Notes under the pieces: model-generated
Seen by the model: the letters and a program-made list of their open reading frames with translations, nothing else
What the model was told of the DNA's origin: nothing
The model's database searches: none
From: a virus
DNA: 29,511 nucleotides
Direction: 5' to 3' (one strand)
Virus record (IMG/VR): IMGVR_UViG_3300025853_000457
Span: 1 to 29,511 of that record
Part shown: piece after piece, positions 1-21,500 of the stretch
Layout of the letters: each line of letters begins with the position of its first letter
Numbering within the stretch: the stretch's first letter is position 1
Program-made: the position numbers and the translations under genes

Positions 1-4
1 CAAT

Positions 5-181
5 ATGCAAAAAAATCCGGACAAAAATTTTGTGACCGTAGAGGTTGATCCAGCAACAGACGAATATTATGTTACAATACCTGAGTGGATCATCAATGAT
101 CTTGGATGGTATGAAGGTACTGAGGTTGAGTGGGTCATTGATGGTGACGAATTGTTATTAAAAGAGGTTCAAGATGAATGA
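5..181 (+). CDS. AbrB/MazE-like swapped-hairpin small protein
   Basis: This 58-residue ORF begins four bases into the window, so the true start could lie further upstream. Its second half, from VTIPEWIINDLGW at about residues 23-35 to the end (EGTEVEW, then a short DGDELLLKEV strand), follows the SpoVT/AbrB/MazE pattern of a 'TIP' strand, a short helix ending in LG, 'EGDEVEW', and a closing strand. Proteins with this fold bind DNA as dimers, as transition-state regulators or as antitoxins. It is acidic and lacks the basic patch many AbrB DNA binders have, so DNA binding is inferred, not shown. Its last 8 bases overlap the next gene (174), which implies translational coupling. No toxin-like partner is recognised downstream. 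The fold call is fairly secure; the role is open. Confidence 0.6.
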   Translation: MQKNPDKNFVTVEVDPATDEYYVTIPEWIINDLGWYEGTEVEWVIDGDELLLKEVQDE

Positions 182-377
182 AATAATGGGCACTATGTAT
201 CACATTTATCTAAAAGATAGATGTTTACATTATGGATTAACAGAAGAAGAATTTCCAAAGGCTTGGGAGACTGCCAAGGGAATGATAGTTCTCATGAAAA
301 CCGAGTACACGATTGATGACCTGAGTTATGAGGAACTCAACTACTCAAAGAATGCAATACTCGACTCATCACACTGA
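174..377 (+). CDS. Conserved small cyanophage protein, function unknown
   Basis: This is a 67-residue acidic protein with no signal peptide or membrane segment. It starts inside the end of the AbrB-like gene, overlapping it by 8 bases. An AGAGG at 164-168 gives suitable spacing for the ATG at 174; in-frame ATGs at 186 and 195 are possible alternatives, since the core seems to begin at YHIYLKD (residues 9-15). The pattern YHIYLKD...LTEEEF...W...KTEYT.DDLSYEEL resembles small ORFs I recall next to structural clusters of T4-like cyanophages, where no function is known. It looks mostly helical. I do not recognise a catalytic or binding motif. Confidence 0.65.
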   Translation: MNEIMGTMYHIYLKDRCLHYGLTEEEFPKAWETAKGMIVLMKTEYTIDDLSYEELNYSKNAILDSSH

Positions 378-406
378 TTGACTAACCACTATATAAGTGG
401 TATGAT
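378..406 (+). promoter_or_regulatory. Sigma70-like promoter with inverted repeat in the spacer
   Basis: TTGACT (378-383) and TATGAT (401-406) are separated by exactly 17 bases, close to the bacterial housekeeping consensus. Transcription would start near 413, just before the glycosyltransferase ATG at 430. The spacer carries a perfect 6-bp inverted repeat, ACCACT-ATATA-AGTGGT (385-401), which touches the first base of the -10 box. That is a natural position for an operator. This promoter type differs from the T4-type late promoters further along and suggests host RNA polymerase use before late transcription begins. Confidence 0.65.
385..401. repeat. Inverted repeat, possible operator
   Basis: The left arm ACCACT (385-390) and right arm AGTGGT (396-401) are perfectly complementary around the 5-base centre ATATA. 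The element fills most of the gap between the -35 and -10 boxes. As DNA it could be a dimeric repressor site. It lies upstream of the predicted transcription start, so it would not form a hairpin in mRNA from this promoter, though it could in read-through transcripts. Confidence 0.55.
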
Positions 407-429
407 ACTGAAGTAAAAATCATTCGATT

Positions 430-1188
430 ATGACAAAAGGATTCACTGTAAAAGCAAAGGCACCGATTCCACAAAAATCAGAGCAAGAGTGGGATTATGA
501 TCTTGCGAAACAAATGATTCGAGGAAAGACAGTTGTATTTTGTCTACCTGGGAGGGGTGTTTCGTACACATATCTAAAAAGTTTTGTACAATTATGCTTT
601 GATCTTGTACAAGCAGGTGCAAGTATTCAGATTAGTCAAGACTACAGTTCCATGGTGAACTTTGCCCGTTGTAAGTGTCTCGGTGCAAATGTTCTACGTG
701 GTCCAGATCAAAAACCATGGGATGGTAAATTGGAATATGACTATCAACTATGGATTGATAGTGACATCGTATTCAATACTCAAAAGTTTTGGCAAATTCT
801 TTTAATGGATAAGGATATTGCCGCTGGTTGGTATGCAACAGAAGATGGATCAACCACATCCGTTGCACATTGGTTAGACGAAGACGATTTCCGTGGTAAT
901 GGTGGTGTAATGAATCACGAAACGGTTGACAGTATTTCAAAGCGTCGTAAACCATTTACCGTTGATTACACTGGATTCGGATGGCTTCTCATTAAAAACG
1001 GTGTCTTTGAGCACTCTGAGATGAAGTATCCATGGTTTGCACCAAAGATGCAGGTCTTTGAGTCTGGTGAAGTTCAAGACATGTGTGGTGAGGACGTTTC
1101 ATTCTGTCTCGATGCCAAGGAAGCAGGTTTTGAGATCTGGTGTGATCCTCGTGTTCGTGTTGGTCACGAAAAAACTCGTATCATCTGA
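430..1188 (+). CDS. Glycosyltransferase, GT-A fold type
   Basis: This is a 252-residue soluble protein. A hydrophobic strand (TVVFCLPGRG, about residues 34-43) opens a Rossmann-like fold. LWIDSDIVF carries the DxD metal/nucleotide-sugar motif at residues 110-112. GWYATEDG follows at 133-140, the acceptor-side segment VDYTGFGWLLIK at 178-189, then CGEDVSFC (219-226) and a final H at 246 (RVGHEK). The GED motif and the late His fit the catalytic-base and metal-ligand layout of GT2-like GT-A enzymes. It probably moves a sugar from a nucleotide-sugar donor; donor and acceptor cannot be read from sequence. Similar enzymes sit beside tail genes in marine T4-like phages, so virion or host-surface glycans are plausible targets. 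It has its own sigma70-like promoter and no clear Shine-Dalgarno. Arginine is almost always CGT, unlike the late genes. Confidence 0.75.
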   Translation: MTKGFTVKAKAPIPQKSEQEWDYDLAKQMIRGKTVVFCLPGRGVSYTYLKSFVQLCFDLVQAGASIQISQDYSSMVNFARCKCLGANVLRGPDQKPWDGKLEYDYQLWIDSDIVFNTQKFWQILLMDKDIAAGWYATEDGSTTSVAHWLDEDDFRGNGGVMNHETVDSISKRRKPFTVDYTGFGWLLIKNGVFEHSEMKYPWFAPKMQVFESGEVQDMCGEDVSFCLDAKEAGFEIWCDPRVRVGHEKTRII

Positions 1189-1193
1189 GTCTT

Positions 1194-1361
1194 ATGAGCA
1201 AAGAAGAATTTTACACTGTCTATGTCGATGGTGTTGAAACTCATAAAAATCTTACAGAAGATGAATATTTTGATCTGATGGAAGACTTTGCGATAAAATA
1301 CTATGAGTCGGGAGGTACAAATCCCGTCAAGGTTACTTTTAAAATCACTCAAGGAGATTAA
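1194..1361 (+). CDS. Small acidic protein, function unknown
   Basis: This is a 55-residue ORF starting 5 bases after the glycosyltransferase stop. It reads as a beta strand (FYTVYVDGVE), an acidic helix (LTEDEYFDLMEDFAIKYYE) and a closing strand (VKVTFKITQGD). That is a compact alpha/beta fold of a type common among short conserved cyanophage ORFs. No enzymatic motif is visible. Its last codons hold the AAGGAG that serves the next gene, so the two are probably translated from one message. Codon choice (GTC, CTG) matches the glycosyltransferase gene rather than the late genes. The ORF is well supported by context; the function is unknown. Confidence 0.6.
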   Translation: MSKEEFYTVYVDGVETHKNLTEDEYFDLMEDFAIKYYESGGTNPVKVTFKITQGD

Positions 1362-1366
1362 TTCTT

Positions 1367-1504
1367 ATGGCAATGCGTAAAGGTGGTGGGTATGTCAAGG
1401 GCGCACCCAAAAAATCTCGTCAAGGCTGTGGCATGAATACCAAATATGCCGCATCTTCTCGTAATAAAGCACGAAAGAAGTATCGTGGTCAAGGTAAAGG
1501 TTAA
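1367..1504 (+). CDS. Small, very basic Gly/Lys/Arg-rich protein
   Basis: This is a 45-residue protein, MAMRKGGGYVKGAPKKSRQG at the start and KARKKYRGQGKG at the end, with about a third Lys/Arg and no acidic residue. An AAGGAG at 1351-1356 supports the ATG at 1367; a second ATG lies two codons in, at 1373. Near-identical tiny basic ORFs occur, as I recall, in many T4-like cyanophages, none with a known role. Nucleic-acid binding is the natural guess from charge alone. It lies 5 bases after the preceding gene and is followed directly by a terminator, so it closes the first transcription unit. Arginine codons are CGT or CGA, as in its upstream neighbours. Confidence 0.7.
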   Translation: MAMRKGGGYVKGAPKKSRQGCGMNTKYAASSRNKARKKYRGQGKG

Positions 1505-1516
1505 TTAATACTGCAC

Positions 1517-1540
1517 GGGCGGGTTTATACCCGCCTTTTT
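1517..1540 (+). terminator. Rho-independent terminator
   Basis: GGCGGGT (1518-1524) pairs perfectly with ACCCGCC (1529-1535) around a TTAT loop and is followed by five T residues (1536-1540). It lies 13 bases after the stop of the basic ORF and ends the glycosyltransferase transcription unit before the late genes. Confidence 0.9.
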
Positions 1541-1546
1541 ACTAAA

Positions 1547-1554
1547 AATAAATA
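1547..1554 (+). promoter_or_regulatory. Weak T4-type late promoter candidate
   Basis: AATAAATA differs in the first base from the T4 late -10 box TATAAATA. It lies directly after the terminator and 66 bases before the ATG at 1620, where a new promoter would be expected. In A-rich DNA this match could be chance. Confidence 0.3.
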
Positions 1555-1583
1555 CGATTTAGGGATAGGAACCCCTTAAAAAG

Positions 1584-1615
1584 TTCTGTTTTGTCAAGAA
1601 AAGACCAAACAGGAG
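1584..1615 (+). promoter_or_regulatory. Hairpin covering the ribosome binding site of the 82-aa ORF
   Basis: Bases 1584-1595 (TTCTGTTTTGTC) can pair with 1603-1614 (GACCAAACAGGA) across the 7-base loop AAGAAAA: ten Watson-Crick pairs, one G-U and one mismatch. The Shine-Dalgarno AGGAG is at 1611-1615, so four of its five bases are in the stem. This could hold translation of the 1620 ORF low until the stem is opened. Pairing was worked out by hand; no folding energy was computed. Confidence 0.45.
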
Positions 1616-1619
1616 CAAA

Positions 1620-1868
1620 ATGTACTACAAACAAGTAGACAGGGATGTCAATTACATGTACAAAATGTGGGGAACAACCAAATTAATAACTGATTATTGG
1701 TCACTTCCGCAACAATCCAATGATCCAGAAGAATTTACAACCGAAGAATTAGAAAAACAACCGCATAATCTTAAAATACAGTCAGAATTGCACCAAAAAA
1801 TAAGAAATGATGACGATTATGATGACTGGTCGTATGGAACGGAACCAAATTATGGAGTTTCCTGGTAA
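1620..1868 (+). CDS. Hypothetical protein, 82 aa
   Basis: This is an 82-residue hydrophilic protein rich in Asp, Glu, Gln and Tyr, with no membrane segment or signal peptide. AGGAG at 1611-1615 precedes the ATG at suitable spacing and decides the start. The N-terminal part (about 1-30: MYYKQVDRDVNYMYKMWGTT, then KLITDYW) looks helical and aromatic; the rest is acidic and probably flexible (NDDDYDDWSYG near the end). It sits alone between the terminator at 1540 and the late promoter at 1873. I do not recognise a family. Its place directly before gene 25 hints at a virion or assembly role, but nothing in the sequence shows this. Confidence 0.6.
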   Translation: MYYKQVDRDVNYMYKMWGTTKLITDYWSLPQQSNDPEEFTTEELEKQPHNLKIQSELHQKIRNDDDYDDWSYGTEPNYGVSW

Positions 1869-1872
1869 TACT

Positions 1873-1880
1873 CATAAATA
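1873..1880 (+). promoter_or_regulatory. T4-type late promoter for the gp25-gp6-gp7 unit
   Basis: CATAAATA is a one-base variant of the T4 late -10 consensus TATAAATA, read by RNA polymerase carrying the phage late sigma factor (gp55 type) with the sliding clamp. No -35 is needed. Transcription would begin near 1886, leaving a leader of about 18 bases before the gp25 ATG at 1904. The distance from box to ATG (24 bases) matches the other two late promoters in the window. Confidence 0.6.
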
Positions 1881-1903
1881 AATGCAGAAAAAAGTCCTTT
1901 CCA

Positions 1904-2305
1904 ATGTCCATTAAAAGGGTATCGAGATCATTTAAGGATATTAGTTTATCATTTGAACCACATCCAGTCACTAAAGACTTACCTATTCTTAAAAATGAGC
2001 GAGCAATCATTCGATCTGTTCGAAATATTGTAGAAACTATACCTTCTGAGCGATTTTTTAACTTAGATTTTGGAAGTGATGCAAGATCTTCACTATTTTC
2101 AATCATCGACTATGGAACAATTGCAATTATTGAAGATCAAATCATAAGATCAATCAAAAATTATGAACCAAGAGTCGAAAATGTAAGAGTTAATGTGAGT
2201 TCTACCTATGATGATAATACTGTTGAAGTAGAAGTGATCTTTGATATTATTGGACAGGACTTTCCAACACAAGAGTTTACATTTATTCTAGAGGCAACGA
2301 GATAA
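1904..2305 (+). CDS. 25: Baseplate wedge protein gp25
   Basis: At 133 residues this matches T4 gp25 (132). It has the GPW/gp25 family layout: an N-terminal segment (SRSFKDISLSFEPHPVTKDL), a helix that places the wedge (LKNERAIIRSVRNIVETIPSERFF), an LDFG.DARSSLF segment, then a helix into the conserved EPR core (IKNYEPRVENVRV, about residues 88-100) and two closing beta strands. In T4, gp25 binds the gp6 ring and helps start sheath polymerisation; the EPR triad is a structural core and the old lysozyme label is not supported. The stop is one base before the gp6 ATG. There is no clear Shine-Dalgarno and the leader is short. Arginine codons are mixed CGA/AGA, between the upstream block and the later genes. 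Confidence 0.93.
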   Translation: MSIKRVSRSFKDISLSFEPHPVTKDLPILKNERAIIRSVRNIVETIPSERFFNLDFGSDARSSLFSIIDYGTIAIIEDQIIRSIKNYEPRVENVRVNVSSTYDDNTVEVEVIFDIIGQDFPTQEFTFILEATR

Positions 2306-2306
2306 A

Positions 2307-4226
2307 ATGCCTTTTACAAATTACACAAATCTAGATTTTGATCAGATAAAAACCTCGATCAAAGATTATCTTAGAGCAAATTCAAATTTCACAGATTTTG
2401 ATTTTGAAGGATCAAATTTTTCTGTATTGATTGATGTACTAGCATACAATACTTACATCAATGCATTCAATACAAATTTGACCATAAATGAAGCCTTCTT
2501 AGATTCTGCAACTGTAAGAGAGAATGTAGTATCACTGGCAAGAAATATTGGATATGTGCCCAGATCTAGAAAGTGCTCTACGGCAACAGTTTCTTTTGAT
2601 ATTGAAACAAATGAAACTGGATTATTATATCTACAACCAGAGTTATTGTGTGTTGGTTCAGTCAAAGATTCTTCGTACATATTCTCAATTGCAGATGAAA
2701 TAACTGCATCCATTATTGATGGAGTAGCGTCATTTAACAATATCACAATTTATCAAGGGAGACATATAAAACAAACTTTTAATGTTGATACTTCCCTAGA
2801 TCAGAGATTTATTCTACCAAACTCCTTTATAGATACTTCTACAATTAGAGTCTATGTCAAAGGTCCAAATGACATTGGGACTGGTAAGAAATATTCTTTA
2901 ATCGATAATATTATTACAGTAGATCAAAATTCTGAAATTTTCTTGATTCAAGAAGTTAAAGATGAGAGATATGAATTATTATTTGGTGATGGTATAATTG
3001 GTAAAAAACTAGAAAATGGATCCAGAATCGTCGTTACTTACATTGTAACTGATGGTCGTGAAGGAAATGGAGCTTCTGAGTTTTCTTTTGCAGGGTCTAT
3101 AAAAAATTCGAATGGTGTTTTAGTAGTACCAACGAATGAAACCATCACAATTACTACAGTACAAGAATCAAAAGATGGATCCGAAATTGAAACTGTAGAT
3201 TCAATTAAATATTATGCCCCAAGAATATATTCGTCCCAATATAGAGCAGTTACCGCTAGTGATTATGAAGCTTTAATTAAAACAGAGATCTATCCAAACG
3301 CAGATATTGTGACCGTAGTTGGTGGAGAAGAACTAAATCCACCAGAATATGGTTCTGTATCTATATCAATTAAACCAAAAAATGGTTTATACATTTCCGA
3401 TTTTGATAAAGAACTTATCTTATCAAAATTAAAGAAATACTCTATTACTGGAATCAATCAAAAACTAATTGATATCAAAGTTCTCTATGTTGAATTGGAT
3501 TCTTTTGTTTATTATAATCCTGTCAAATCATCTTCTCCTTTGGCAGTAAAGACAAAGATACAAAAGTCTTTAACAACACTTGCAGAATCTTTATATTCAA
3601 CTAAGATTGGTGGTAGATTTAAATATAGTAAAGTTATTAATATAATAGATGACTCTGATAGTTCAATAACATCAAACATTACCAAGATAATTATAAGAAG
3701 AAATCTAAACTGTTTATTGAATCAATTTGCAGAATATGAATTGTGTTATGGAAATAGATTCCATGTAGATTCTGATGGTGGAAACATTAAGTCTACAGGA
3801 TTTAAAATTCCATCCCAATCTGGATATGTAAATCAAGATGGATATCTTTATTTTACAGATATTCCAAATGCAGATAAAAAAACAGGTATTATTGCAGTTA
3901 TCAAACCATCACTAGTACCTGATGTAAAACCACAAACAATACTTCAGTCGGCAGGAACTGTTGATTATGTAACTGGTGAGATACGTTTAAATGCATTAAA
4001 TATCATTTCAACAGAAAAACCAAATGGTGTGGTTGAGATACAGGCTTTCCCAGAATCGAATGATGTAATAGGATTGAAAGACTTGTATCTATCAATCGAT
4101 ATCGAAAAAAGTAAAATAAATATGGCTAAAGATGTTATTACATCTGGAGAGAATACCTCTGGTGTTCTTTTCACTTCAGATTATTACAAATCAAGTTACT
4201 CTAACGGAAGTCTAATAAGGAATTAA
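2307..4226 (+). CDS. 6: Baseplate wedge protein gp6 (baseplate J-like)
   Basis: At 639 residues it is close to T4 gp6 (660). The N-terminus (FTNYTNLDFDQIKTSIKDYL, then FTDFDFEGSNFSVLIDVLAY at about 30-49) is the typical gp6/J-family start, and the segment NAFNTNLTINEAFLDSATVRENVVSLARNIGY (about 53-84) is the conserved helical core. KYYAPRIYSSQYRAVTASDYEALI (about 301-324) is the hallmark of the baseplate J domain. The C-terminal third is beta-rich. gp6 dimers of the T4 wedge form the inner ring that opens on contraction, held by gp25, gp53 and gp7. The gene starts one base after gp25 and ends one base before the gp7-like gene, so the three are translated from one message. Length and motifs are complete; no frameshift is seen. 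Confidence 0.93.
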   Translation: MPFTNYTNLDFDQIKTSIKDYLRANSNFTDFDFEGSNFSVLIDVLAYNTYINAFNTNLTINEAFLDSATVRENVVSLARNIGYVPRSRKCSTATVSFDIETNETGLLYLQPELLCVGSVKDSSYIFSIADEITASIIDGVASFNNITIYQGRHIKQTFNVDTSLDQRFILPNSFIDTSTIRVYVKGPNDIGTGKKYSLIDNIITVDQNSEIFLIQEVKDERYELLFGDGIIGKKLENGSRIVVTYIVTDGREGNGASEFSFAGSIKNSNGVLVVPTNETITITTVQESKDGSEIETVDSIKYYAPRIYSSQYRAVTASDYEALIKTEIYPNADIVTVVGGEELNPPEYGSVSISIKPKNGLYISDFDKELILSKLKKYSITGINQKLIDIKVLYVELDSFVYYNPVKSSSPLAVKTKIQKSLTTLAESLYSTKIGGRFKYSKVINIIDDSDSSITSNITKIIIRRNLNCLLNQFAEYELCYGNRFHVDSDGGNIKSTGFKIPSQSGYVNQDGYLYFTDIPNADKKTGIIAVIKPSLVPDVKPQTILQSAGTVDYVTGEIRLNALNIISTEKPNGVVEIQAFPESNDVIGLKDLYLSIDIEKSKINMAKDVITSGENTSGVLFTSDYYKSSYSNGSLIRN

Positions 4227-4227
4227 T

Positions 4228-7200
4228 ATGATACACGATAGTTTTGAAAATAGAGTTAAGATTCAGGATCTCATAGAAAATCAAATACCTGAATTTATAT
4301 CTTCTGAAAACCCTAAATTCTCAGAATTTTTAAAACAGTATTATATTTCTCAAGAAATACAAGGTGGAAATATAGACCTTGTAGAAAATCTTATTGATTA
4401 TTTGAGGTTAGACAATTTAAATAATAGTACTTTAAATCAATCAACAACGTTATCTGCAGACGTTTCTTCCACAAATATTACTGGTGGAATAACATCTGAG
4501 ATTTTTGTTGCTAGTACTAAGGGATTTCCAGCAAAGTATGGTTTGATTCAGATTGGAACTGAAATTATAACATATAAGTCAAAAACTTCTACAAGTTTTG
4601 TAGACTGTGTTAGAGGATTTAGTGGCATAACAGAGTATAAAGATGCATTAAAATTTTCATCTTCTTCAATATCCTCACACAATTCAGGAAGTAGTGTAAT
4701 TAATTTAAGCGTACTATTTCTTCAAGAGTTTTACACCAAAATAAAATCACTAATTTTACCAGAATTACAATCTTCAGATCTATATTCAGAACTGAACATT
4801 AATAATTTTCTAAAGAATACCACGTCATTATATAAGTCTAAGGGTAGTAGAGAATCATTTAAAATACTTTTTAGAGCATTATTTGGAATTACACCTACTA
4901 TCGTTGACTTAGAAAATTATATTATAAAATTATCAAATGCTGATTATTTGAGAAGAATTGAACTTTTAGTTCAATTACTATCGGAAACTGGTGATCCTTC
5001 AAAATTAGTTGGACAGCAAATACAAAAAACAAATAATCCAGATGTATTTGGGTCAGTATCCGAAGTAGAAATTTTAAGTAGATCTGGAAGAACTTACTAT
5101 AAAATCTTTTTATATGTTGGAAATGATGATTCCCATATCAACTATGAGGATCTATTTGAAAGTACTCCAGTTACTAAAACAATAATACCAATTTTATCTT
5201 CAGATAATTATGATACAATTACTGTAGATTCTACAATTGGATTTCCTGCTTCTGGTAGTTTTTTATTTGGAACCAATGAAATATTTTACACCAATAAAAG
5301 TGTAAATCAATTTTTTGGATGTTATACTGCAGGACATTCTCATGTTAATTTAAATATTCCAACAAAATCTATTATAAACTCTAAAGATACCTATTTTGGG
5401 TATGAAAATGGTGATGTTACAAAAAAACTTGAATTTTTATTACTATCAAATATTTCAGATATTATAATTGACAATACTGCAGAAAATGCCAAGCATGTAT
5501 TTTCAAATGAAGATCTTTATGTCGGTAGTTTGGGAAAACTGATTAGGAATAGGGAAAATATTCCTACAGAAATTTTTTCAAACAGCCTAGTTTACAATAC
5601 TAGCGTCAGAATTAAATTATCTAGTTATAATAAACCTTCGGCATCAGCGACAGTTGATATTGAATTAGATAAAAGTTTTCTAAAGGTAGGTGATACTGTA
5701 GAATTTTTAGAAAGGAATACCGAGATTTTAGTACAATCACTATCAAACGCTACAATTGAATCTATTAATGGATCCGAAATAAGATTCTCATCATCTCTTG
5801 ATAGTTTAAATGATTTAAAAACATATGATATTCGTAGAAAATTAAAAACCTCAACTAGTTCATTTATACCATTATCTTTTGATAGTATTACTAGTGATGT
5901 ATCAAATTTATATTATGAAGATGATAATACCTTATATATTGCATCCAATTCACTTCCATCATATCCGATTCAAAATGATATCATTAAATCGACAGTATCT
6001 TCACTAAAGAATTATGATTCTATAGAGGAAAAATACACTACTTTAGAATTAACTCAGTTATCTTCATTTGTTACTGGGGATAAAGTATATTATTCATATA
6101 CTGGAGATCCTATTGGTGGACTGATAGAAGGTGAATACTATCTTTCAATAACAAATTACAAAGACATAAAATTATACAATTCAACATCAGGTATAGTTGT
6201 TGATAATCACATTTATTTTTCATCTTTGCCAGGTGGAACCCATACATTCACATTAGTATCTCAAAAAACTGATGATGATAAGTTGTATCCAGCAAAGATA
6301 TTGAAAAAAATATCTTTAAATCAAAATTATCTTGATGTTAGTAATGATGAAATTGGATCAGATACCATAGGAATTATGGTTAATGGTGTGGAAATATTGA
6401 GTCCAAAATCTACAGATAAAATATATTATGGACCATTAGAAAGTGTTCAGATATTTAAGCAAGGATCTGGATATGATGTTATAAATCCACCATTTCTTAA
6501 AGTGGAAGGTAATGCCAAATTGCAACCTGTAGTTCAGGGTGGTATAGAAAAAGTTTTTGTAGATCCTGTTTATTTTGATGTTAGGGAACCATTGGTACTT
6601 AAAGTAATTGGTGGAAATGGAAAAAATGCTACATTAAAACCAGTATTAAAAAATAAGTCTAGGGAGATATCTTTTAATGCAAGAACAATAGATGATGGTG
6701 GTGGTTTAAGTTATGATGATGAGACTATTACATTTTTAACTGATCATAATCTTTATGATGGACAAAAGGTTTACTATTCTTTTGATGAAAATAAAAATCA
6801 AAAAATAGGAATATCTACAGCATACGGTCTAAATCAAAAAACTGGTTACTTAGAAAATAACCAGGGATTTCATATTGAAATAATAAATTCAAAAACAGTA
6901 AAACTTTTTACAACATTAAATGATTACCGTGCAGGAATAAACACTGTAGGATTTTCAACCGAAGGAAATTTTGGTATACACAGATTTAGAACTGAACCAA
7001 GAAAAACATTAGATTCTGTAGTAGTAGTAAATCCCGGTGAAGGGTATACAAATAGAAAATTAATTGTAAGTCAAAGTGGTATATCGACCGTATCCGATTC
7101 AATTACCTTTAAAAATCATGGATTTTCAACAGGAGAATTGGTAACTTATGATTATGAAACTACTAATATTGGAGGATTAACAAGATCCAATCAATATTAT

Positions 7201-10200
7201 ATTTTAAAAATAGATTCAAACTCTTTCAGATTATGTGATGCTGGTCCAAGTGGGACAGATAGTTCAAATTATAATAGAGAGAAATATGTAGACTTAACTT
7301 CTACTGGATCTGGTTATCAGTACTTTAATTATCCTGACATACAGGTAACAGTAACTTATCAACCTGGTCAAAATAATCAAATTAATCCAATTACATTAAC
7401 TCCTGTAGTTAAAGGATCTATAGTAGATACTTATGTATATGATAATGGTGTTGGATATGGGTCAACAATATTAAATGTAGAAATTATTCCTTCAGTATCT
7501 GTTTTACAAGGCAAAGAAGCCTCTATGAGTGCAATCTTGGTTGATGGGGTGATAGATCGTGTAAATATTTTTTATGGTGGATATGATTTTTATTCTGTAC
7601 CAGATCTAATAGTTGAAAGTGAAAAAGGAATTGGTGCAGTATTAAGAGCAGAAATATCTAATGGACAAATTACAAACGTAGTAGTTATAGATGGTGGTAA
7701 AGGATATAGTGAAGATGATATCACAATAAAATTTTCTTTCTCAGGAAAGGATTATTTGCCATATCCAAGAATTCGACAATTAACTGTAGATAATTGTTTT
7801 AAATATGGAAAACAATATCAAACACGCAGAGATCCTTCATTAGACTTATTGTATAAAAATATTAAAAATCAATTACAATATGTTGTTTGTGGTTACTTTG
7901 ATAAATTAAGTGAATATTTTAATGAGTCATCAAATATTCACTCACCAATAATTGGATGGGCTTATGATGGAAATCCAATTTATGGTCCTTATGGTTACTC
8001 AGATCCTTTAACAATATCACCAATAAAACAACTAAATCCTAGTTATGTTCAAAGTACTAGTGACATTGTTAATAGACCTAGTGAATTTGCATCTGGATAT
8101 TTTATTGATGATTATAAATTTGATGGATCTGGAGATTTGGACATCTACAACGGAAGATGGTGTGTAACCCCAGAATATCCAAATGGAATTTATGCATATT
8201 TTGCAACAATTAAAGTAAATGCAGATAATGAGATTATTGGAAAGTTCCCATACTTTGTTGGTACAAAATATAGATCAAAGAAAATAATAGAAAATAGTAA
8301 TGATAAATTAGATCAAACTTATGACTTCAAAAATTCATCTTTATTAAGAAATACCTTACCATTTGGTCCAAATGATCAAAATTCTCTTTATGATTTCTAC
8401 AGTAGCAATTTAGATAAGCAAATAACAAAAATTACATCAACATCTAAAGGATCTGTAACTAAAATTGAAGTTGTTGATCCAGGATTAAATTATAAAGTTG
8501 GTGATAAGTTAAACTTTAAAAATTATTCTTTAAACAATAAAGGATTTGGAGCAACTGCATCGGTAAAGACTCTTAAAGGTAAAACTATTGATGCTATCAA
8601 TAATGTAAGTAAAACATACTTAAATGCAAAGTTATATTCATCCACAGTTGATGGAACTAAAATCTCTATATTACCAAATCATGAAATAAAACCAAACACT
8701 AAAATAGAAGTTACCGGTTTCACAAGTTCATTTTCAAAATTAAATGGTACTTATGAAGCTAAGGTTAATAATTTTTATTCAACACTGATCGATTCAATAC
8801 CAGAATATAGTGCGGGCATAGTAACAGATATCAAAGTTTCTGCATATCCTGCTATAGTTTCTATTGGAAGTTCTATCAAAATTACAACTGGTACAAGTAG
8901 TTCAAGTTATGATCAATATTTTAATATTTTAAATTATTATGAAGATTACTCCATAATAAGATGCAAAAAAGTTGGTGATAGTGGACTAAGTACATCTAAT
9001 TCTCCAGTTCATTTTTTACCAAACTTTATAGATATAAATTATGGAGATAGTAGTTTTAAATCTTCAACAAACTATAAAAGATATTTTAATCCACAACAAT
9101 CTGTAGGTGTTGGAACTTTTACAGGATCTCAATACAGAAGAAATTTCTATGTTGGAAATAATTTAGTATCCAAAGATATACCAATTCAAACGATTTATTT
9201 GCCAAATCATGGATTGCGAACAGGACAAAAAGTTCTCTTTGAAAAACCTACGACAGGATCTGCTATATTGGTACAAAATAGTCCTGATGGAAGCTCTTGG
9301 AATATTCCAGAGACTGGAGATCAAATAGAGTTATATATTATTAATAAAAACAGTGATCATATTGGAATAACAACTCAAGTTGGATTTACAACAAGTACAA
9401 ATGGATTGTATTTCCCAAGTATCTTAAATTCGGGATCAGATAATAATGAATACTCATTTAATACTCTTTATACTGAGGAATCATGTAAAATATCCCAAAA
9501 TATAACAACAGTCTCAATTTCAACAGTACACAATTTGAAAGATACTGATAAAATTGAATTGAACGTAGTTTCAAATCAAAGTGTTGGTATTGGTACTAGT
9601 GGATATCTTAATGTTAAGTATTTTTCAGATACTAAATCTTTATCTTTAAGAGAATTGCAATTTGATCCTTCGAATGTTTCTATTAGTGAGAACACACTAT
9701 CAATACAAGACCACAGATTAAACAATGGAGATAAAGTATATTATATTTCTACTTCTGCACCATCAGGAATAACTACTGGAGTTTATCATGTCAATAGGCT
9801 TGATGATAATACATTAAGATTGTCGGAAACTTTTAAAGACTCTACAGTTTATCCGTATAATACTTTACAGGTTACAACCCAAGGAATTGGTACACAATCC
9901 ATATTTGTATTACATCCCGAAATTAGTATAATTCGAAATAATGATTTAGTATTTGATGTTTCAGATTCTTCATTGCAAGGATATCAATTAAAATTCTATT
10001 ATGATGAAGAATTTAAAAATGAATTTAAATCGCCATTTATTGTTGGTGTAGGAACAGTTGGAGTAACATCAACATCTAGACTAAATTTAAATTATGATGC
10101 ATCTCTTCCAAAAGAACTTTACTACACAATAGTGGATTCATCTTTAAATAAAATAACTTCTTCAATATCAAACAATAATAATTCAAAGATTAAATATATT

Positions 10201-13200
10201 AATAGCATTTATTCAAATGAATATGACATATTTGGCGTAACTGATACAACATATCAAATTTATCTCCAAGAAAACCCTGAGATAAACAGTTATGCTAAAG
10301 AAGATTGTGATATTTTAGAGTATACAACAAATTCAATCAATGCAAATGGATCAGTAAACGAAATAACTCTTACTGATGGCGGAAACATTTATTCAGACCT
10401 ACCATATTTCTATGATTCTGATAGTGTAAATGGTACAGGACTGGTTGTTAATTTATCTTCAAATAACATTGGTAAAATTTTATCAAAAGAAATTATGAAT
10501 GGTGGTTTTGAGTATCCTACAGATCCAACTTTATTGCCATCATTAAAAACATCCAAAAATTGTTACATCAATAACTCATATTATTTGAAGGATGTTAGTG
10601 TAATTTCGGGCGGTTCAAATTATCCATCTGCGCCAAATTTGGTGGTCATTGATACTGATACTAGAGATCTGATTGATCAAGGGATCCTAATACCAGAAAT
10701 GTCTGGATCTGAATTTGGAAATTCTAATATATTTAATGTTACGATCGACAGTACTCCACGTGGATTACCAATTACACCAGTAACAGTTGTTGCAGTAGAC
10801 AATTCTAATGGAATAAGAATTGATAGAGTAACTTCAAGTTCTTCTGGAATTATGACTTGTATACTAAAAACTCCAATTATAGGATTCCCAGAAGATCCAT
10901 TTGCCGCTGGTGATCAAGTTTATGTTGAAAATATCGATATTATTCCTGATTCTGGTATAGGATGGAACTCTAAAGATCATGGGTATGTATTATTTGATGT
11001 TATTAAGTATACTGCACAGTCAGACCCGGGAGAAATGGAAATTAAAATTCCAAAGTTATATGGAAATCCCGGCATAGCAGTAACCTTCCAAATTAACACA
11101 TTTGCTTCTATAGTTAAAAAAGAAAACTATCCAGTATTTAAAACAACTCATGAGTACTCACCTTTCATTGATGGGGAGAGTATTTTAATTATTGAATCTG
11201 ACGAGTCTTTAACCAAAACTGATCTTGTTGTTAAAAGTTATTCTCAAAACTATGTAAAATTATTTGGATCTACCGATATCAGTAAGGGTACAAAAATTAA
11301 AGGAAGTACATCTAATTCAATAGCAACTGTGTATGATGTGACTCAAGCTTCTGGAAGTTATGATGTATCTTCATCAAGATTAGTTGAGTATGGATGGAAG
11401 TCTGATTCTGGAAAATTAAATTATGATACTCAATTTATTGCTGATAATGATTATTATCAAAATTTATCATATACAATAAAGAGTGAAAAAACATGGGAAG
11501 AAATAAAGACTCCCGTAAATTCACTTGTTCACCCATTAGGAACCAAGAATTTTGCAGATACACAGATACAAGATAAAGTAACTAGAATAATTGATAGTGT
11601 TGGTATAAATTCAAGTGCCACATTAGAAATAACAAAGATATTAGATACCCAAGTGAGGGTTGATACTATAAAGAATTTTGATATGGTAGTAGATTATGAT
11701 CCAACATCACAATCATCAAAACTATTAAAGTTCAATACTGTGCAACTTTCAGACTACTTTGGATCAAGATCTAATAGAGTCTTGAATATTGATAACATTA
11801 GTGGACTATTTTCCAGTTCTGACGATGCAAATTTCTCAGAAGATTTGGTAATTAAGTCACTTTCACCAGAAGTATCATATTATAAAGTATTAGTCCAAAT
11901 AAAGAGTAGTCCTGAAAATATAGAGCGGGGTATAAATCATCATCAATTAACTGAGGCAGTTCTTTTGCATGATGGAATTTTTACTTCATATATTTCTGAA
12001 AAGACTGTTTACACAAATGATACATATGGATATTCTTATGGAAAACTTGATGTAGAATCTTTTGGTAGTGGAATCTATAATTTATTATTCATTCCGAATG
12101 ATCCATATAATTATAATTACGATATTAAAATATTATCATCATATTTTGGGATAAATTCAGGAAATTCTGAAAATTATTCAGACCTTTATCTTGGACCAGT
12201 TTTTGTGAGAGGGACAACAAATTACATTCAAAGTAATGACTCAGATATTAATATATTATCTTTAGATAAATCAACATATAATAGTTTTATTGTTGAGGTT
12301 TATCTTCACAATAGAACTACCAATACATCAAGGTATGTTGAATTATTTGGGCTCTATGGTGGTACAGGTTCAGATGTAATATTAGCAGAGTCTAGTTTCA
12401 CTGCAAATGATGATGATCTTTCAATATTTACTGGAATTAGTACTTTTGGAGCCTCAATTGATGGGAGCAATCTTGTTCTTTCTTTTGATAATTATGAAAA
12501 TAACACTTTTAATATAAAAACAAAAATTTATGGTTTTGGAGATTCATCTGTTGGTGTTGGCACTTACAAATTTTCCGATTATCTTCAAGATCAAGAATCT
12601 GTAAGAACTGCAAGAATTGATACATCAGTACATGATACTGGAACTAGCGCAGGAATTTCTACTATTAGAGAGTATGATGGAAGCCTGTTTAGTTCCATAA
12701 AATCTTTAGTGCGGGTAAGTGTGGGCGATAATCTATCACTTCATCAAGTTGCTACATTATATGATGGTGATAATATTTTTATAACTGAAGCACCCTTAGT
12801 TTCTACAGGTTCTTCTATTGGACACTTTAGTTCATCTCTAGATCAAAAAACTATAAAGTTGGAATTTACTAGAAATACCGAATTTTCTAATGAAAATGTT
12901 AATATTACACATCTAGACTATTCATTCTACGAATTTTTGGATGAACTAAATGAACCTGAAGAATTAAATCTGGGATATTTTGTTGAAGATCACTCGATAG
13001 GAAAATATTATGGATTTAATAGTGCAGAAATTAATAGGTTGAAATTCCCACTAAATTATCAAAAAACTCCCATTTTTGAAAAATCTTTTGATCCAAATAA
13101 TAACTTAATTTTAGATCAAAGCACTGGTATAATTACAATTGATGATCATTTCTTTAGTACGGGAGAAAGATTGATTTATAGACCAGATTCATCTTTTACT

Positions 13201-16200
13201 GGAATTGGATATAGTTCTATACACATTCAAGATTCTATAAATTCATCCGGCGTGACAACAACCGTTTTACCAGAAGATGTTTATGCAATAAGAATTGATA
13301 GTAATCAGTTTAAACTCGCATCAAATTATGAAAATTCTATAAGTGGTATTGGAGTAACAATTACCTATCTTGGAGAAGGTAATGCCCATAAACTTGAAAT
13401 GTATAAAAAGAATGAAAAATCATTAATTACTATTAATAATTTAGTTCAATATCCATTAACATACACTGGTATAGGTTATTCACTAACTAATAATAATGGT
13501 AGTATTGGTGTAGGAAATTCTTTCTTTAACCTGACTGGTATAAGTTCAATTTCTCCAATTGACATATTAAAAGTTGATGATGAATATATGAAGGTTATTA
13601 ATGTTGGCATAGGAACAACAGATGGATCTATAAATTATTTAAATGGAGATTTAAATATTGTAGAGGTTGAAAGAGGATTCTTTGGATCAATATCATCCTC
13701 ACATACAGATCAATCTAGAGTTGACTTGTACAAAGGTGCTTATAATATAAGTGGTGATAGTATTTACTTTGCAGAACCTCCAAGAGGAAATATTGGCGAT
13801 CTTATAACTAAAGATGAAAGAAATCTCTTCTATCCAAGAGCATCATTTAGCGGTAGGGTCTTCCTAAAACAAGATTATTCACAAAATGAAATTTATGATG
13901 ACATTTCATATGAATTTGATGGTAAAACATCAGAATTTACTTTAACCAGACTGGGAATAAACACTGCAGGATTTACTACAGAAACTCAAGGTGGAAGTGG
14001 TGTTTTATTCATCAATGGGATTTTACAAACCCCACTCACCAATAATTTAGGCGATTATTACAATTATAGTCTGGATCAAGATGTTCAATCGGGAATAACA
14101 ACAATTAAGTTCACTGGTCTTACAACTGAAGGTGGAATTTATGTAAGTGACTCCGATGTAAATCAAAACCAATTACCTAGAGGGGGATTAATTGTTTCTC
14201 TTGGTTCAACTTCTGGTCTCGGTTATGCTCCTCTTGTAGGAGCTCGGGTTAAGTTAAATGTTGATGAGTATGGAACTATAGTAGATCCTGTAGTTTCAAT
14301 TGCAAGAACTGGAAAGGAAATTGGAATTACTACAGCAGAATATGATCATATCAATGGAATTCTAACTATTGAATCGGAATCCTCGGAAATTTATAAATTA
14401 AGAGAATCTAATTCAAATTATGTTAAATTAGTTGGTCTAGGATTCACTTGTGATAGTCAAGCTGGTATTATATCTTACTTCCCATACACCCGAAATGAAG
14501 AATATCCTTTTGGTGTTATTGGATTGGGAACAAATACAGTTTCCTTGAATGTCGGTGTTAGTACACTTAAACATTATTATGTTGGATATGGCACTGCTTT
14601 TGTATGGTTACATGGTCTTACACCAGGATCTGGATACAGAGAACCGCTATCTTATGTGATAAGAGATGCAGCTTCCGAATACATTCACAGATTTGTTGAT
14701 GCTGAAGTAGATTCTATTTACACATCAACAAATACTTATGAACCAATATTTGCAGAATATAATCAAAAAACCGGAGATTTGATTCTTTCTATAGAGGATC
14801 ATGGACTAACAACTAGTGATACTGTTGGAATCAAAACTGGATCTATTAGATTTACTTGTTCATCTGATGGATATCTTGTCCCATATGCATATCCAAGATC
14901 AACAGATCCAGTTGCTGGCATATCTACTGAGATTCTTAGTTACACTACAAATTCCATAACAGTTAATGTTGGTGGAATGGGTGGTTCTGGTGCCGAAATT
15001 GATATTGTTGTTGGTGCGGGTGGTACATTAGGATTTACTGTTTCCGCTGGAGGAACAAATTATATAAATCCCATTTTAGATATAGAACCACCATCATATG
15101 ATAATCTTGAAATGATTGGTGTTTCAAGATTATCTGTTGGACTTACAACAGAAACTGGAACGGGTATGTCTATAAATGTGGATGTTATACCTTCCAGGGT
15201 ATATAATGATGATGGTACTGTTGGAATTGGATCTACTTTATTTGAAGTATCTTCATTCGAAATTTCTAGAAATGGATATGGATTTAGACGTGGGGATATT
15301 ATAAAACCAGTTGGACTAGTTACTGCTGCTGGATTGTCTGAACCAATTGAAGAGTTTAAACTGTACGTGTTATCAACTTACACTGACAACTTTGCTGCTT
15401 GGCAATTTGGTGAAATGGACCTTATGGATAACATAAAACCATATCAAAATGGTATTAGAAAACAATTCCCATTATACTACAATGGTGATTTAGTATCTTT
15501 CCAAAGAGATGAAAATAATCTTGAGCAATCGCAAGATATTGATTTTAATTCTGTTTTGGTTGTATTTGTAAATGGAATTTTACAAGATCCTGGAATTTCT
15601 TATGAATTTGAAGGTGGAACATCTTTCAGATTCTTAGAAGCACCAAAACCAGAAGATGTGATTCAAATTTACTTCTATGTGGGCACTTCTAACGTAGACT
15701 CTAGTTTAGTTCTTATTGATGAAACTATTCAACCCGGTGATCAACTTAAAGTAAAATCTATTAATAGTAGATTAGATGAAACTGAGGATCAAAATTCTAG
15801 AATGGTATTTGATATATTATCTACTGATATTGTTGAAACTAATTTATACTTTGGGGATGGAATAAACTCTGAGATTCTTCGACCCGTTGATTGGGTTAAA
15901 CAAAAAGGAGATCTTTATATAAATGAAGTTTTCTATTCAAAATCTAGAGAATCCATAAAAGCACAAATTTATCCAACAGCAAAAGTAATATATGATTTTA
16001 ATGAAACAGATGGATTTATATATGTTGATAATGCAGAGTTATTTGCATATGAAGGCGATTCTGCAGTATCTAGTGATAAACTAGATTTGATATTAGCTCC
16101 ATACCAAGACAATAATCAAACTGGAATTGTTACTGCAACTGTTTCAGCAGATGGAACTATTTCAACATTTAATATTGTTAATTCTGGTTTTGGATATACA

Positions 16201-16959: not shown

Positions 16960-16965
16960 AACAAG

Positions 16966-16973
16966 TATAAATA
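16966..16973 (+). promoter_or_regulatory. T4-type late promoter for gp8 and the DUF4815 gene
   Basis: An exact TATAAATA lies in the 33-base gap between the gp7-like stop and the gp8 ATG, which is the only long gap in this stretch. Predicted transcription start is near 16979, 14 bases before the gp8 start. The leader has no Shine-Dalgarno; it is mostly A and holds a two-codon ATG GTT TAA at 16983-16991. Confidence 0.75.
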
Positions 16974-16992
16974 GTAAAAAAAATGGTTTAAA

Positions 16993-18567
16993 ATGTCTGC
17001 TTTTGTAACGGATCAATTTAGAATTTTAAATACCAATAATTTTATTGATTCTATTACTAATGAAACCGATTACTATTATGTTTTTGTTGGGTTGTCTAAC
17101 CCAAAAGGGTCTCTAATAGGAAGAAATCCTAATTGGGAGGGTTCCGAGGGGGTTTCATCTGGGGATGCAGTTGTTCCTGCCCCTGTAGATAACTATGACT
17201 ATCTTACACATTATGGTGATCTAATTCAATATGGTAAAAGAGTAATACCTGAAAATGTAAGAAGATGTATTAGAAAAATTGAATGGAAACAAGGTACAAA
17301 ATATGATATGTACCGACATGATTATAGTGTTACAAATAGAAGTCCGATTACTGACCGAGCGAGAATTTATGATACAAATTACTATGTGATTAATAGTTTA
17401 TATCAAGTCTATATTTGTATAAGTAACGGATCTAGTGGTACTGATCCAACAGGAAAAGAATCTCAAGATGAACCAACATTTACCGATTTAGAACCCTCAA
17501 AAGCAGGTAATAGTGGAGATGGTTATATTTGGAAATATTTGTTTACTGTACCACCAACAGACATTATAAAATTTGATTCAATTGAATTTATACCTTTACC
17601 AAATGATTGGAGTACTTCAACAAGCACTCAAATTGCAAATGTTAGAAATAATGGCAATTCTGATTTAAATAATAATCAAATAAAATTTGTTTACATTGAT
17701 AATTCCGGAAGTGGTGGTTATTCTGATGGTGAAGTTGATATACTGGGTGATGGATCTGGAGCTAGAGTATTCATAAACACTGATGACAATGGAAAAATTA
17801 TAAAGACTACTGTGACCACTGGTGGGTCTGGATATACTTATGGAATTGTCGATTTAGGACCACTTCAACAAACACAAAATTTCACCCAACCAGCAAAATT
17901 AATTCCAATAATTCCACCGTCTAGGGGGCATGGATATGATTTATACCGGGAACTAGGTTCAGATAGAGTTTTAGTTTATAGTAGATTTGATTCTTCAACG
18001 AAAGATTTCCCATCAGATTGTAAGTTTGCACAAATTGGAATACTAAGAAATCCTTCAAGTTTCATATCTGATAATAGATACACAAATTCAACTTTCTCTG
18101 GATTATATTCCCTTAAAGTTACTCTCGGCAGTTCAACATTGCCTGTAGTTGGTGAATTGATGCAACAACAGGTAGCTGGTGGATATGCTTATGGTTATGT
18201 TGCATCATTTGACACTGAAACATCAATTTTAAAATATTTTAAAGATAGATCAATAGTTTATAATACTAGCACTGCAGATCAAACAGATTATGTTGGTATT
18301 TCCACTTTCTCAAAAAATTTAGAATTCTCTAGTACAAATATAATTTCGGGAGCAAACGGATTTACTGCTACTATTGATACAACATTTAATGCATCATCAT
18401 TAACTGTAAACAATAAAGTAATTAATCTAGATTCTAGTTTTATAAGTGGAGCATCAAGTCCTGAAATAAATAAAACATCTGGAGATATTATCTTTATCGA
18501 TAATAGACCTTTAGTAACAAGAAGCTCTAGACAAAAAGAAGATATTAAAATCATTCTAGAATTTTAA
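16993..18567 (+). CDS. 8: Baseplate wedge protein gp8
   Basis: This has 524 residues against 334 in T4, the longer form seen in cyanophages. The N-terminus is diagnostic: VTDQFRILNTNNFIDSI, then YYVFVGLSNP (about 28-37), YDYLTHYGDLIQYGKRV, the IRKIEWKQGTKYDMYRHDYS block (about 93-112) and DEPTFTDLEPS...GDGYIWKYLFTVPPTDIIKFDS (about 158-196). In T4, gp8 dimers tie gp6, gp7 and gp10 together in the wedge. About 100 residues after the core there is one GG-x-GY unit (VTTGGSGYTYGIVDL, near 276-290), the same repeat type as in gp7 and gp14. A late promoter lies just upstream; the start is in an A-rich context without a Shine-Dalgarno. The stop is 3 bases before the next ATG. Confidence 0.88.
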   Translation: MSAFVTDQFRILNTNNFIDSITNETDYYYVFVGLSNPKGSLIGRNPNWEGSEGVSSGDAVVPAPVDNYDYLTHYGDLIQYGKRVIPENVRRCIRKIEWKQGTKYDMYRHDYSVTNRSPITDRARIYDTNYYVINSLYQVYICISNGSSGTDPTGKESQDEPTFTDLEPSKAGNSGDGYIWKYLFTVPPTDIIKFDSIEFIPLPNDWSTSTSTQIANVRNNGNSDLNNNQIKFVYIDNSGSGGYSDGEVDILGDGSGARVFINTDDNGKIIKTTVTTGGSGYTYGIVDLGPLQQTQNFTQPAKLIPIIPPSRGHGYDLYRELGSDRVLVYSRFDSSTKDFPSDCKFAQIGILRNPSSFISDNRYTNSTFSGLYSLKVTLGSSTLPVVGELMQQQVAGGYAYGYVASFDTETSILKYFKDRSIVYNTSTADQTDYVGISTFSKNLEFSSTNIISGANGFTATIDTTFNASSLTVNNKVINLDSSFISGASSPEINKTSGDIIFIDNRPLVTRSSRQKEDIKIILEF

Positions 18568-18570
18568 AAA

Positions 18571-21500
18571 ATGGCACAAAAAACAAATCTCAACATCAAT
18601 CCATATTTTGATGATTTTAATGCGGACAAAAATTATTACAAGGTTCTTTTTAATCCAGGAAGACCTATACAGTCTAGAGAATTAAATACAATTCAATCTA
18701 TTCTACAAAATCAGATTGAATCTTTTGGTAGTCATATTTTTAAAGAAGGATCTATGGTGATTCCTGGTGGAACTCACTATGATTCATCATTTCATGCAGT
18801 AAAATTAAATACAACTTCTTTTGGTGTAGATATTAACCAATATATCGAAAAATATGTTGGTAAGAAAATAGTAGGTCAATCTTCTGGTCTAACGGCAGTA
18901 GTTAAAAAAGTGGTACTGCCCAATGAACAGATAGATGAGATTACATTATATGTAAAATATTTAACTTCAGGTTCTAATTTTGATTTTACAACATTTTTAG
19001 ATGGAGAATCTTTATCATCCACAGAAACTATTGCGTATGGAATCAATAATACCACAATATCTGATGGTACACCATTTGCATCTTTAGTATCTACAAGTGC
19101 TACCGAAATTGGAAGTTCTGTATCTATTGAGAATGGTATTTATTTTGTAAGGGGATGTTTTGCCTCTGTAGAAAAACAAACTTTAATATTAGATTATTAT
19201 ACAAATATATCTTCTTATAGAGTTGGACTGAGTATTTTAGAGGAAATTGTTACTGCAAAGGATGATTCTACACTTTATGATAATGCTAGTGGATTTAATA
19301 ATTTCTCATCACCCGGAGCAGATAGATTTAGAATTAGATTAGTTTTATCAAAAAAATCGTTAACTGATTTTAATGATACTAACTTTATAGAATTACTTCG
19401 TGTAGAAAACGGAGTACTTAGAAAATTAGAAACGAAGACTGATTATAATTTAATCAAAGATTATTTAGCTAAAAGAACTTATGATGAATCTGGAAATTAT
19501 ACTACAAATAACTTTAGCGTATCTTTAAATTCTTCTTTAAATAATCTACTAGGCAACAATGGAAAATATTATGATGGAGATGTAACTACTCAAGGAAATA
19601 CACCATCTGACGATTTGATGTGTGTTACTATTGGACCAGGAAAAGCTTATGTTAAGGGTTATGATATTCAAAAAAATGTAGGTACAGTACTTGATATTGA
19701 AAAACCAAGAGATACTGAAGAAATTAATAATATTCTTGTCCCATTTGATATGGGAAATATTCTCAAAGTAAATAACGTATATGGATCAGCAATAACAAAA
19801 TCTACAGTATCATTTTATAAGAGAAGAAGAGGATCTTCAGACACACCAACTGGTGATGTAATTGGTAATGCTAGAGTTTATCTATTTAAATTATCTGATA
19901 TTGCATACACCGGAGAAACGTCAATTTGGGATTTGTATCTTTATGACATTAGAATGTACACAGAACTTACTCTCGGTACTACTTTATCATCCGCTGAAAT
20001 TAAATCTGGTTCAAGAGTTGTTGGTCAATCTAGTGGTGCAATTGGATATTCCGTTAGTGATGGTGATGGATCAAATACAATATATGTTAGACAAGAATCC
20101 GGAACATTTTTACAAAATGAAACTATAACCATTGGTGGGATTGATGCAAACCACCGAAGCATTGTTTCTATAATAGCACATAGTACAAATGATATTAAAT
20201 GTGTATATAATTCAGATTATTCAACAACTTTTATAGCAGATGCGGTATTGGACAAAGTTCTTGTACCAGGATTTAATGCCTTTGATACTGTAACTGTCGA
20301 TGGTAGTTCATTAGTTTCATCCAAACCCCTATCAGGAATAACTACAGATACTATAATTGCATATAGAAAACCAGGAGATATAGTAGATACTTATAATAGA
20401 GTTACATCCGTCTTTGCAAACACACTAACTCTTGCAACTACTACAGCAACAAGTGGTGTAAATACTGGAACTTTGAGTGCTACAGAAACTGATGTTGGGT
20501 TTAGAATAGCTAGATCATCCATAAAAAATCCAGAAAAAAGTTATCTATATGCAATTCTTCCTAATAGTAATATTGCATCTACAAGGCTGAGTGATTCTGA
20601 ATACAATTTTTCCTCTCAAGCACTGTTAAGTATCACCCAAAGTTCTTCAGAATTAATATTATCTACTTCTGATTTTGATCTTCCTGCAGATAGTGCATCA
20701 GTTAGATTTAATACATTTTCTCCAGATAGATATTCTATTCACTATAGTGACGGAACTATTGAACCATTAACCGCTGACCAAGTTACGTTTAATTTACAAT
20801 ATACTACTGTAACTTTTAAGAATGTTTCAAACAGTAAGACTGTTAGTGTAGTCAATGGATCATTTATAAAGTCTGGAATACAAAGTAAGGCAAAAGTTCT
20901 TAAAAAGAGTAATATTTTAGATATATCTTTATCTAAGTATGAAGGGTCGGGATCGGATGTCAATAGTAGTAGAAATGATGGACTCACATATAACAGATAT
21001 TATGGACTTAGAGTGCAAGATGAAGAAATATGTTTGAGAAATCCTGATGTATCAAAAATTATTGCCATATATGAAGAAGTTTCAAATGGAATTATCTTTG
21101 ATAAATTAACATTTTCTGCGACTTATGGTATACAAAGTAATGCAATTATTGGTGAAAATATTATTGGACAGTCATCCCGATCAGTTGCAAGAATTGTTGG
21201 GAAATCTGCAAACACAGTTGAATTTGTGTATTTAAATGGATCTAAATTTACTCTAGGTGAAGTAATTAAATTTGAAGATTCTAATATTAATGCCGAATTA
21301 GAGTCAATCACATTTGGTTCATATAAAAATGTTACTTCTGGTTTCAGATTAAATAAAGGACAAAAGGATGAGTATTATGACTATTCATCTATAGTGAGAA
21401 ATAAAAATTATCCGGAACCATCTAGAAAGTTGAAGGTAGTATATGACTATTATGATGTATCTTCTCAAGATAATGGTGATGTGTATACTGTGTCTAGTTA

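Follow-up and report, generated by a model that had tools for sequence, protein, structure and literature searches.

The analysed stretch of 29,511 nucleotides (IMGVR_UViG_3300025853_000457, hereafter the window) is a fragment of a T4-like cyanophage. Its bases 1-1620 have DNA matches in 191 phage records, 187 of them from Synechococcus phages, Prochlorococcus phages or cyanophages and four from marine viruses. The genes downstream in the window encode a baseplate wedge and other virion proteins. Two ORFs are giant, one at 4228-16959 (4243 aa, phrog_2885, baseplate wedge) and one at 18571-26034 (2487 aa, phrog_358, function unassigned in the PHROG annotation). The features relevant to this study are the following.

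5-181, + strand: gene of a small acidic AbrB/MazE-like protein (PF04014; phrog_661), the upstream neighbour
378-383, + strand: -35 element TTGACT, five of six consensus bases; TTGAC is conserved in the family
385-401, no strand: inverted repeat with perfect 6-bp arms (ACCACT and AGTGGT around ATATA), poorly kept across relatives
390-396, + strand: spacer box TATATAA; family core TANATA, usually TA[G/T/C]ATAAT
401-406, + strand: -10 element TATGAT, five of six consensus bases; A402 and T406 are the bases demanded by the rule for the conservation counts
413-420, + strand: predicted transcription start G413 with conserved first bases, family consensus GTAA
430-1188, + strand: glycosyltransferase-like gene with a DSD (DxD-like) motif (phrog_1574; orthologue of T4-GC 102)
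1194-1361, + strand: small ORF (phrog_3252), probably in the unit of the glycosyltransferase-like gene
1367-1504, + strand: small ORF (phrog_516; residues 1367-1501 plus stop), probably in the same unit
1517-1536, + strand: terminator-like hairpin followed by TTTTT, the probable end of the unit
1873-1880, + strand: canonical late-type motif CATAAATA ahead of gp25, used as comparison site

The orthology of the 430-1188 gene to T4-GC 102 follows the annotation of P-SSM2 and S-SSM7, and some phage records label the orthologue "glycosyltransferase". Among 28 aligned proteins, 24 have a WIDSD motif and the remaining four WIDND. Searches with the protein returned no Pfam family at 0.001, no NCBIfam family at 1 and, by profile, no relative of solved structure at E 0.1; the AlphaFold model was uninformative (mean pLDDT 39.5). 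In S-SKS1 (HQ633071.1, ~143926-144680) the gene matches as two separate pieces. By eye, the window's leader of 17 bases shows no Shine-Dalgarno sequence. The hairpin is not significant by itself, as bases 1-20000 contain six terminator-like sites with 6.4 expected. Right after it, a late-type ATAAATA (1548-1554) lies ahead of an ORF at 1620, from which late transcription may restart past the hairpin.

A TTGACT/TATGAT pair with 17-base spacing, enclosing a perfect 6-bp repeat that reaches the -10 element, had been predicted from the letters of this DNA, and both are present exactly as described. The spacer between the hexamers (384-400, AACCACTATATAAGTGG) is 17 bp long, within the 16-18 bp of a sigma70-type promoter; a TG is present at -15/-14, and the final T of the repeat doubles as the first base of the -10 element. 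Judged from the window sequence alone, promoter and repeat are within chance. Six 17-spaced pairs with five of six matches in both hexamers occur in the window, compared with a mean of 8.35 across 40 shuffles, and arms of 6 bp or longer (loops 0-9) were found at 9 of ~334 such sites in shuffled sequence. A looser promoter scan of bases 1-20000 gave 120 sites with 122.5 expected. The exact palindromic 17-mer is single-copy in the window record, which spans only 29.5 kb, and a match with at most three mismatches arose in 12 of 100 shuffles. An Rfam scan of the window returned zero families at the gathering score. Since these statistics are unremarkable, the promoter is credited on the basis of its conservation in relatives.

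Conservation was assessed in 101 loci, comprising the window, its 80 best-scoring IMG/VR relatives by protein similarity (a non-random sample with shared ancestry) and 20 loci from named phages. Three loci were dropped for too little upstream DNA, and the remaining 98 yielded 92 distinct upstream regions. Only loci fetched by similarity entered the conservation counts, those retrieved through palindrome or box searches being excluded; the charge and gp25 tallies given below are based on a wider locus set including such loci. The layout TTGAC-N16-18-TAnnnT was present in 80 of the 92 upstream regions: 65 of 71 from IMG/VR, 14 of 20 from named phages (P-SSM2, S-SRM01, S-SKS1, S-T4 and Bellamy among them) and the window. 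The spacer measures 17 bp in 76 of these promoters and 18 bp in four. This conservation strongly supports a real sigma70-type promoter of the glycosyltransferase-like gene, widely shared among cyanophages. At the predicted start, columns 413-416 read G, T, A and A in 61, 57, 68 and 58 of 76 promoters, respectively. The first transcribed bases form the palindrome GTAATTAC in 24 of 107 relatives in a partly selected set, and the window itself does not have it.

The layout was not found in 12 of the 92 upstream regions. These belong to six named phages (ACG-2014f, S-CAM7, S-SSM7, S-TIM5, Sf-FS3 and B23) and six IMG/VR loci (L009, L013, L053, L054, L067 and L068). ACG-2014f retains the CTACATACTAGTATGA run and has no TTGAC. 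In L009 and L013 an inserted ORF, which by eye resembles an HNH homing endonuclease, separates the box promoter from the gene. In the subgroup of L053, L054, L067 and L068, TATAATTAC plus a GAATCGATTC run precede the gene in place of the promoter layout. When phage records were searched with the consensus sequence, P-SSM2, P-SSM5 and S-SKS1 matched at the gene, and the rest of the matches were at chance level.

As judged from the aligned upstream regions, the conserved feature inside the spacer is a TATA-like box, which in 19 cyanophage genomes is nearly specific to the promoter of the glycosyltransferase-like gene. Although the box was no condition for entry into the promoter set, TANATA lies within the spacer of 75 of the 80 promoters, five being without it. 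The third base is free (27 G, 24 T, 22 C and 2 A in 75 boxes). Counted from TTGAC, the box offset is 11 in 60 cases, 12 in ten, 9 in three, and 13 and 15 in one each, and the box begins mostly 11-12 bp ahead of the -10 element. Pairwise identity over 389-396, excluding the free base, is 68% (2850 pairs, 76 loci), compared with 33% at 383-387, 34% at 397-399, 26% at the free base 391 and 40% at four-fold codon positions of the glycosyltransferase-like gene.

The specificity of the box was evaluated in 19 named cyanophage genomes, 16 of which carry the glycosyltransferase-like gene; no copy was detected in Syn9, S-PM2 and P-HM2. Together they contain 315 sites (145 + 170) with the pattern TTGAC-N17-19-TATNAT. 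The reversed pattern occurs 88 times, so that some of the 306 sites used for comparison are expected to be chance matches. A box 10-14 bp from TTGAC is present in seven of nine TATNAT promoters of the glycosyltransferase-like gene versus 4 of the 306 other sites (Fisher p 2e-10), in a tally that drew on a whole-genome box search of the same genomes; the remaining two of the nine have the box at offset 9. With any TANNAT as -10 element the box pattern gave 18 matches, ten of them at the glycosyltransferase-like gene. The eight away from it are about what chance would provide, as the reversed control gave seven. Each of the 19 genomes holds 6-34 TTGAC-N17-19-TATNAT sites, and the promoter is thus moderately, rather than strikingly, unusual amid late genes, where the original prediction had called it unusual. 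Mimicry of a host promoter was rejected: among 51 bacterial or archaeal genome matches to a close pattern, none was titled as a cyanobacterium (titles as listed). A description of the box was not found in those portions of the literature that the search made available.

In other phage contigs, the box pattern search also hit promoters of phrog_4973, an unrelated gene of HTH-like type. Relatives of this gene were fetched by protein similarity, and 77 of 80 loci were used, giving 41 distinct upstream regions. All 41 have a sigma70-like promoter, 26 have TANATA in the spacer, and the other 15 mostly read TAAGTA at the box position. Three named records contain relatives of the HTH-like protein, two of Pelagibacter phage HTVC008M and one of Stenotrophomonas phage DLP_6. 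Downstream of its promoter, the HTH-like gene (~90 aa; L289-L368) carries a long leader that contains a short hairpin (e.g. CTTGC..GCAAG).

The layout of the window site had been read as a repressible promoter. The promoter is borne out by its relatives; the palindrome as an operator is not. The 6-bp palindrome itself would, in that proposal, be bound by a dimeric repressor, and a dyad of this kind should be kept or co-vary among relatives, a behaviour that was not found in 74 distinct promoters with 17-bp spacers. Their mean best arm length is 3.72, against 3.65±0.07 under a null in which left and right halves were reshuffled within the same box register (500 shuffles). Arms of at least 5 bp occur in 14 promoters versus 10.9±2.4 under this null, a value reached by 13% of the 500 shuffles, and arms of at least 6 bp in one versus 1.8±1.2. 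A larger, biased locus set agrees in that pairing is no better than in shuffled halves. The arms also flank the box in differing registers. On the other side, some relatives hold differing palindromes in the same spacer, e.g. L040 and L061 with 7-bp arms, neither of which counts as at least 6 bp in the pairing test (the arms of L040 enter the -35 element, and the spacer of L061 is 18 bp long). In IMG/VR the exact 17-mer is matched 16 times, five times elsewhere and 11 times at the glycosyltransferase-gene promoter. All of the latter fall into two clades whose glycosyltransferase-like genes are 81-84% identical, and the identity of the repeat across them makes a small case for a local function. 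With arm pairing not above the null, we regard a palindromic operator as highly improbable. In the window clade the box is shifted by one base (it starts at 390, and at 389 in most relatives), and box plus flanks form the palindrome. Going by these alignments, the palindrome is a clade-specific sequence built on the box and its flanks, not a conserved feature.

The AbrB/MazE-like protein encoded upstream had been named as a tempting candidate to bind the spacer and repress the promoter. Its gene is indeed often adjacent, adjoining the promoter in 62 of 72 upstream regions with a box versus 7 of 17 without (three upstream regions with short DNA left out; Fisher p 0.0003, uncorrected for ancestry). 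However, box and gene are separable, the box being kept without the gene in ten upstream regions and the gene without the box in seven, and the proteins are strongly acidic, with a mean net charge of -9.6 (range -14 to -4) in 117 distinct sequences from a set partly selected by box or palindrome. The match to PF04014 lies at the cut-off (24.8 bits, cut-off 24.7), that to the NCBIfam AbrB family TIGR01439 lies below it (16.5, cut-off 28.3), and a PDB search with the protein gave no AbrB/MazE relative and two chance-level matches. In an alignment to MazE made by eye, the N-terminal strand columns hold mostly acidic or hydrophobic residues, and the lysine and arginine positions which we take to be the DNA contacts of MazE appear not to be kept. 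The E. coli mazEF promoter is repressed by MazE. Its promoter region contains GATATATACTGTATCTACATATGATAG, a TATATA...TACATATGATA run that loosely resembles the box, a likeness to which we give little weight. Altogether the AbrB/MazE-like protein is a weak candidate, and repression by it appears very unlikely.

The box also invites comparison with late promoters. TAAATA is present in all 107 distinct gp25 upstream regions (anywhere in ~60 bases; a few matches are partial), whereas the free base of the box is A in 2 of 75 cases and the window reads TATATA. By this difference, the spacer box is not the canonical late box. A further reading is an overlapping early/late (middle-like) promoter, in which the box would serve as a weak -10 element for the late sigma factor gp55, the promoter being read early by sigma70 and later by gp55. 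Such overlap has reportedly been proposed earlier for RB49 and S-PM2. Box and late motif ATAAATAA have TA-ATA in common, P-TIM68 and DSL-LC03 read exactly TAAATA at the box position, and TTGACTANATA promoters, with A, T, G or C as the free base, recur in the same genomes (16 matches versus none in the reversed control). Overlapping early/late promoters are also a published idea for cyanomyoviruses, as stated in an excerpt of PMC2984593. Against it stands the near absence of A at the free base, which, next to the TAAATA of every gp25 upstream region, suggests that a late box is being avoided; we hold early/late overlap to be unlikely. The box could be a degenerate element of late type; alternatively, its non-A base is kept so as to prevent capture by the late sigma factor, an option that we weakly favour.

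The TTGACTANATA sequences constitute a second promoter type, in which TTGAC is fused to TANATA (TTGACTANATA-N10-13-TATNAT). It was found in 13 of the 19 cyanophage genomes, at L274-L288 (e.g. L288, 1537-1588). A CGTTCA leader lies within the first bases after 13 of the 16 fused promoters, and one of five such loci tested reached the Rfam cut-off of the glutamine riboswitch.

Conservation identifies two real sequence features of the locus, the TTGAC/TATGAT pair with its 17-bp spacing and the spacer box. Their interpretation as a whole, a host-sigma70 early promoter with a gene-specific spacer box, is in our judgement rather probable. Host RNA polymerase with sigma70 would read the promoter, which, being of sigma70 type, would make the unit an early one. 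It would drive a short unit of the glycosyltransferase-like gene and the two small ORFs, ending at the terminator-like hairpin, and this early unit would sit within a region of late baseplate genes. The box would be a gene-specific site for a phage-encoded trans-acting factor. Because it lies between the -35 and -10 elements, binding would exclude polymerase and, at a later stage of infection, silence or retune the early unit. We put forward the box as binding site of such a putative factor tentatively, as a serious possibility that falls short of an even chance. The drift in box offset is easier to reconcile with a factor site than with a rigid polymerase contact, but the similar box in the spacer of the unrelated HTH-like gene is a counterpoint, as it would also fit an intrinsic effect of polymerase and spacer. 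Polymerase itself would then read the box, whether by contacts near -17/-18, by an additional hexamer of -10 type or by ready melting, and the box would set promoter strength with no factor involved. NATAAT, which resembles a -10 hexamer and sits roughly one turn upstream of the real one, is usually part of the box; spacer sequence alters promoter strength (excerpt of PMC8695583), polymerase touches the -17/-18 region (excerpt of PMC5101437), and a similar box is found in other phages. The rarity of the box at the 306 other sigma70-like sites of the 19 cyanophages, some of them chance sites, and its drifting position argue against an intrinsic effect, which we consider rather unlikely.

Returning to the factor-bound box, its most far-reaching form is possible, yet on the doubtful side: TA[G/T/C]ATAAT would be an undescribed element of T4-like marine phages, also present in the HTH-gene promoters of other phage lineages, through which a phage factor switches the unit separately from the general early and late programmes and whose non-A base bars the late sigma factor. 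Control of early and middle genes in cyanophages is described as unclear in an excerpt of PMC2984593. The strong and largely gene-specific constraint on the box provides a defined 29-bp target for finding either a factor or a property of polymerase. The box also makes it easy to test whether the early promoters of cyanophages are shielded from the phages' own late sigma factor.

Among known systems, the MazE-repressed mazEF promoter of E. coli is similar in its A/T-rich TATATA/TACATA in the promoter region and in the MazE-like gene nearby; in the phage, however, the promoter follows this gene instead of preceding it, and the encoded protein is very acidic. With the T4-like late promoter (TATAAATA, gp55) the box shares the TA-ATA core and the A/T context, and it differs in its free third base, rarely A, and in sitting inside a sigma70 promoter. 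The T4 middle promoter (MotA/AsiA) likewise combines a sigma70 -10 element with an extra upstream element. Its Mot box, defined in an excerpt of PMC1524935 as GCTT at -30 to -27, is absent from window positions 370-400, and according to an excerpt of PMC2984593 cyanomyoviruses have neither motA nor asi. Closest are the sigma70-type early promoters of the T4-like cyanophages S-PM2 and Syn9, which have the same TTGAC, ~17 bp, TATNAT layout, are believed to be transcribed by host polymerase and have no MotA-type box. To this layout the window promoter adds a conserved spacer box with a TANATA core, which is rare at other such sites of the cyanophage genomes examined.
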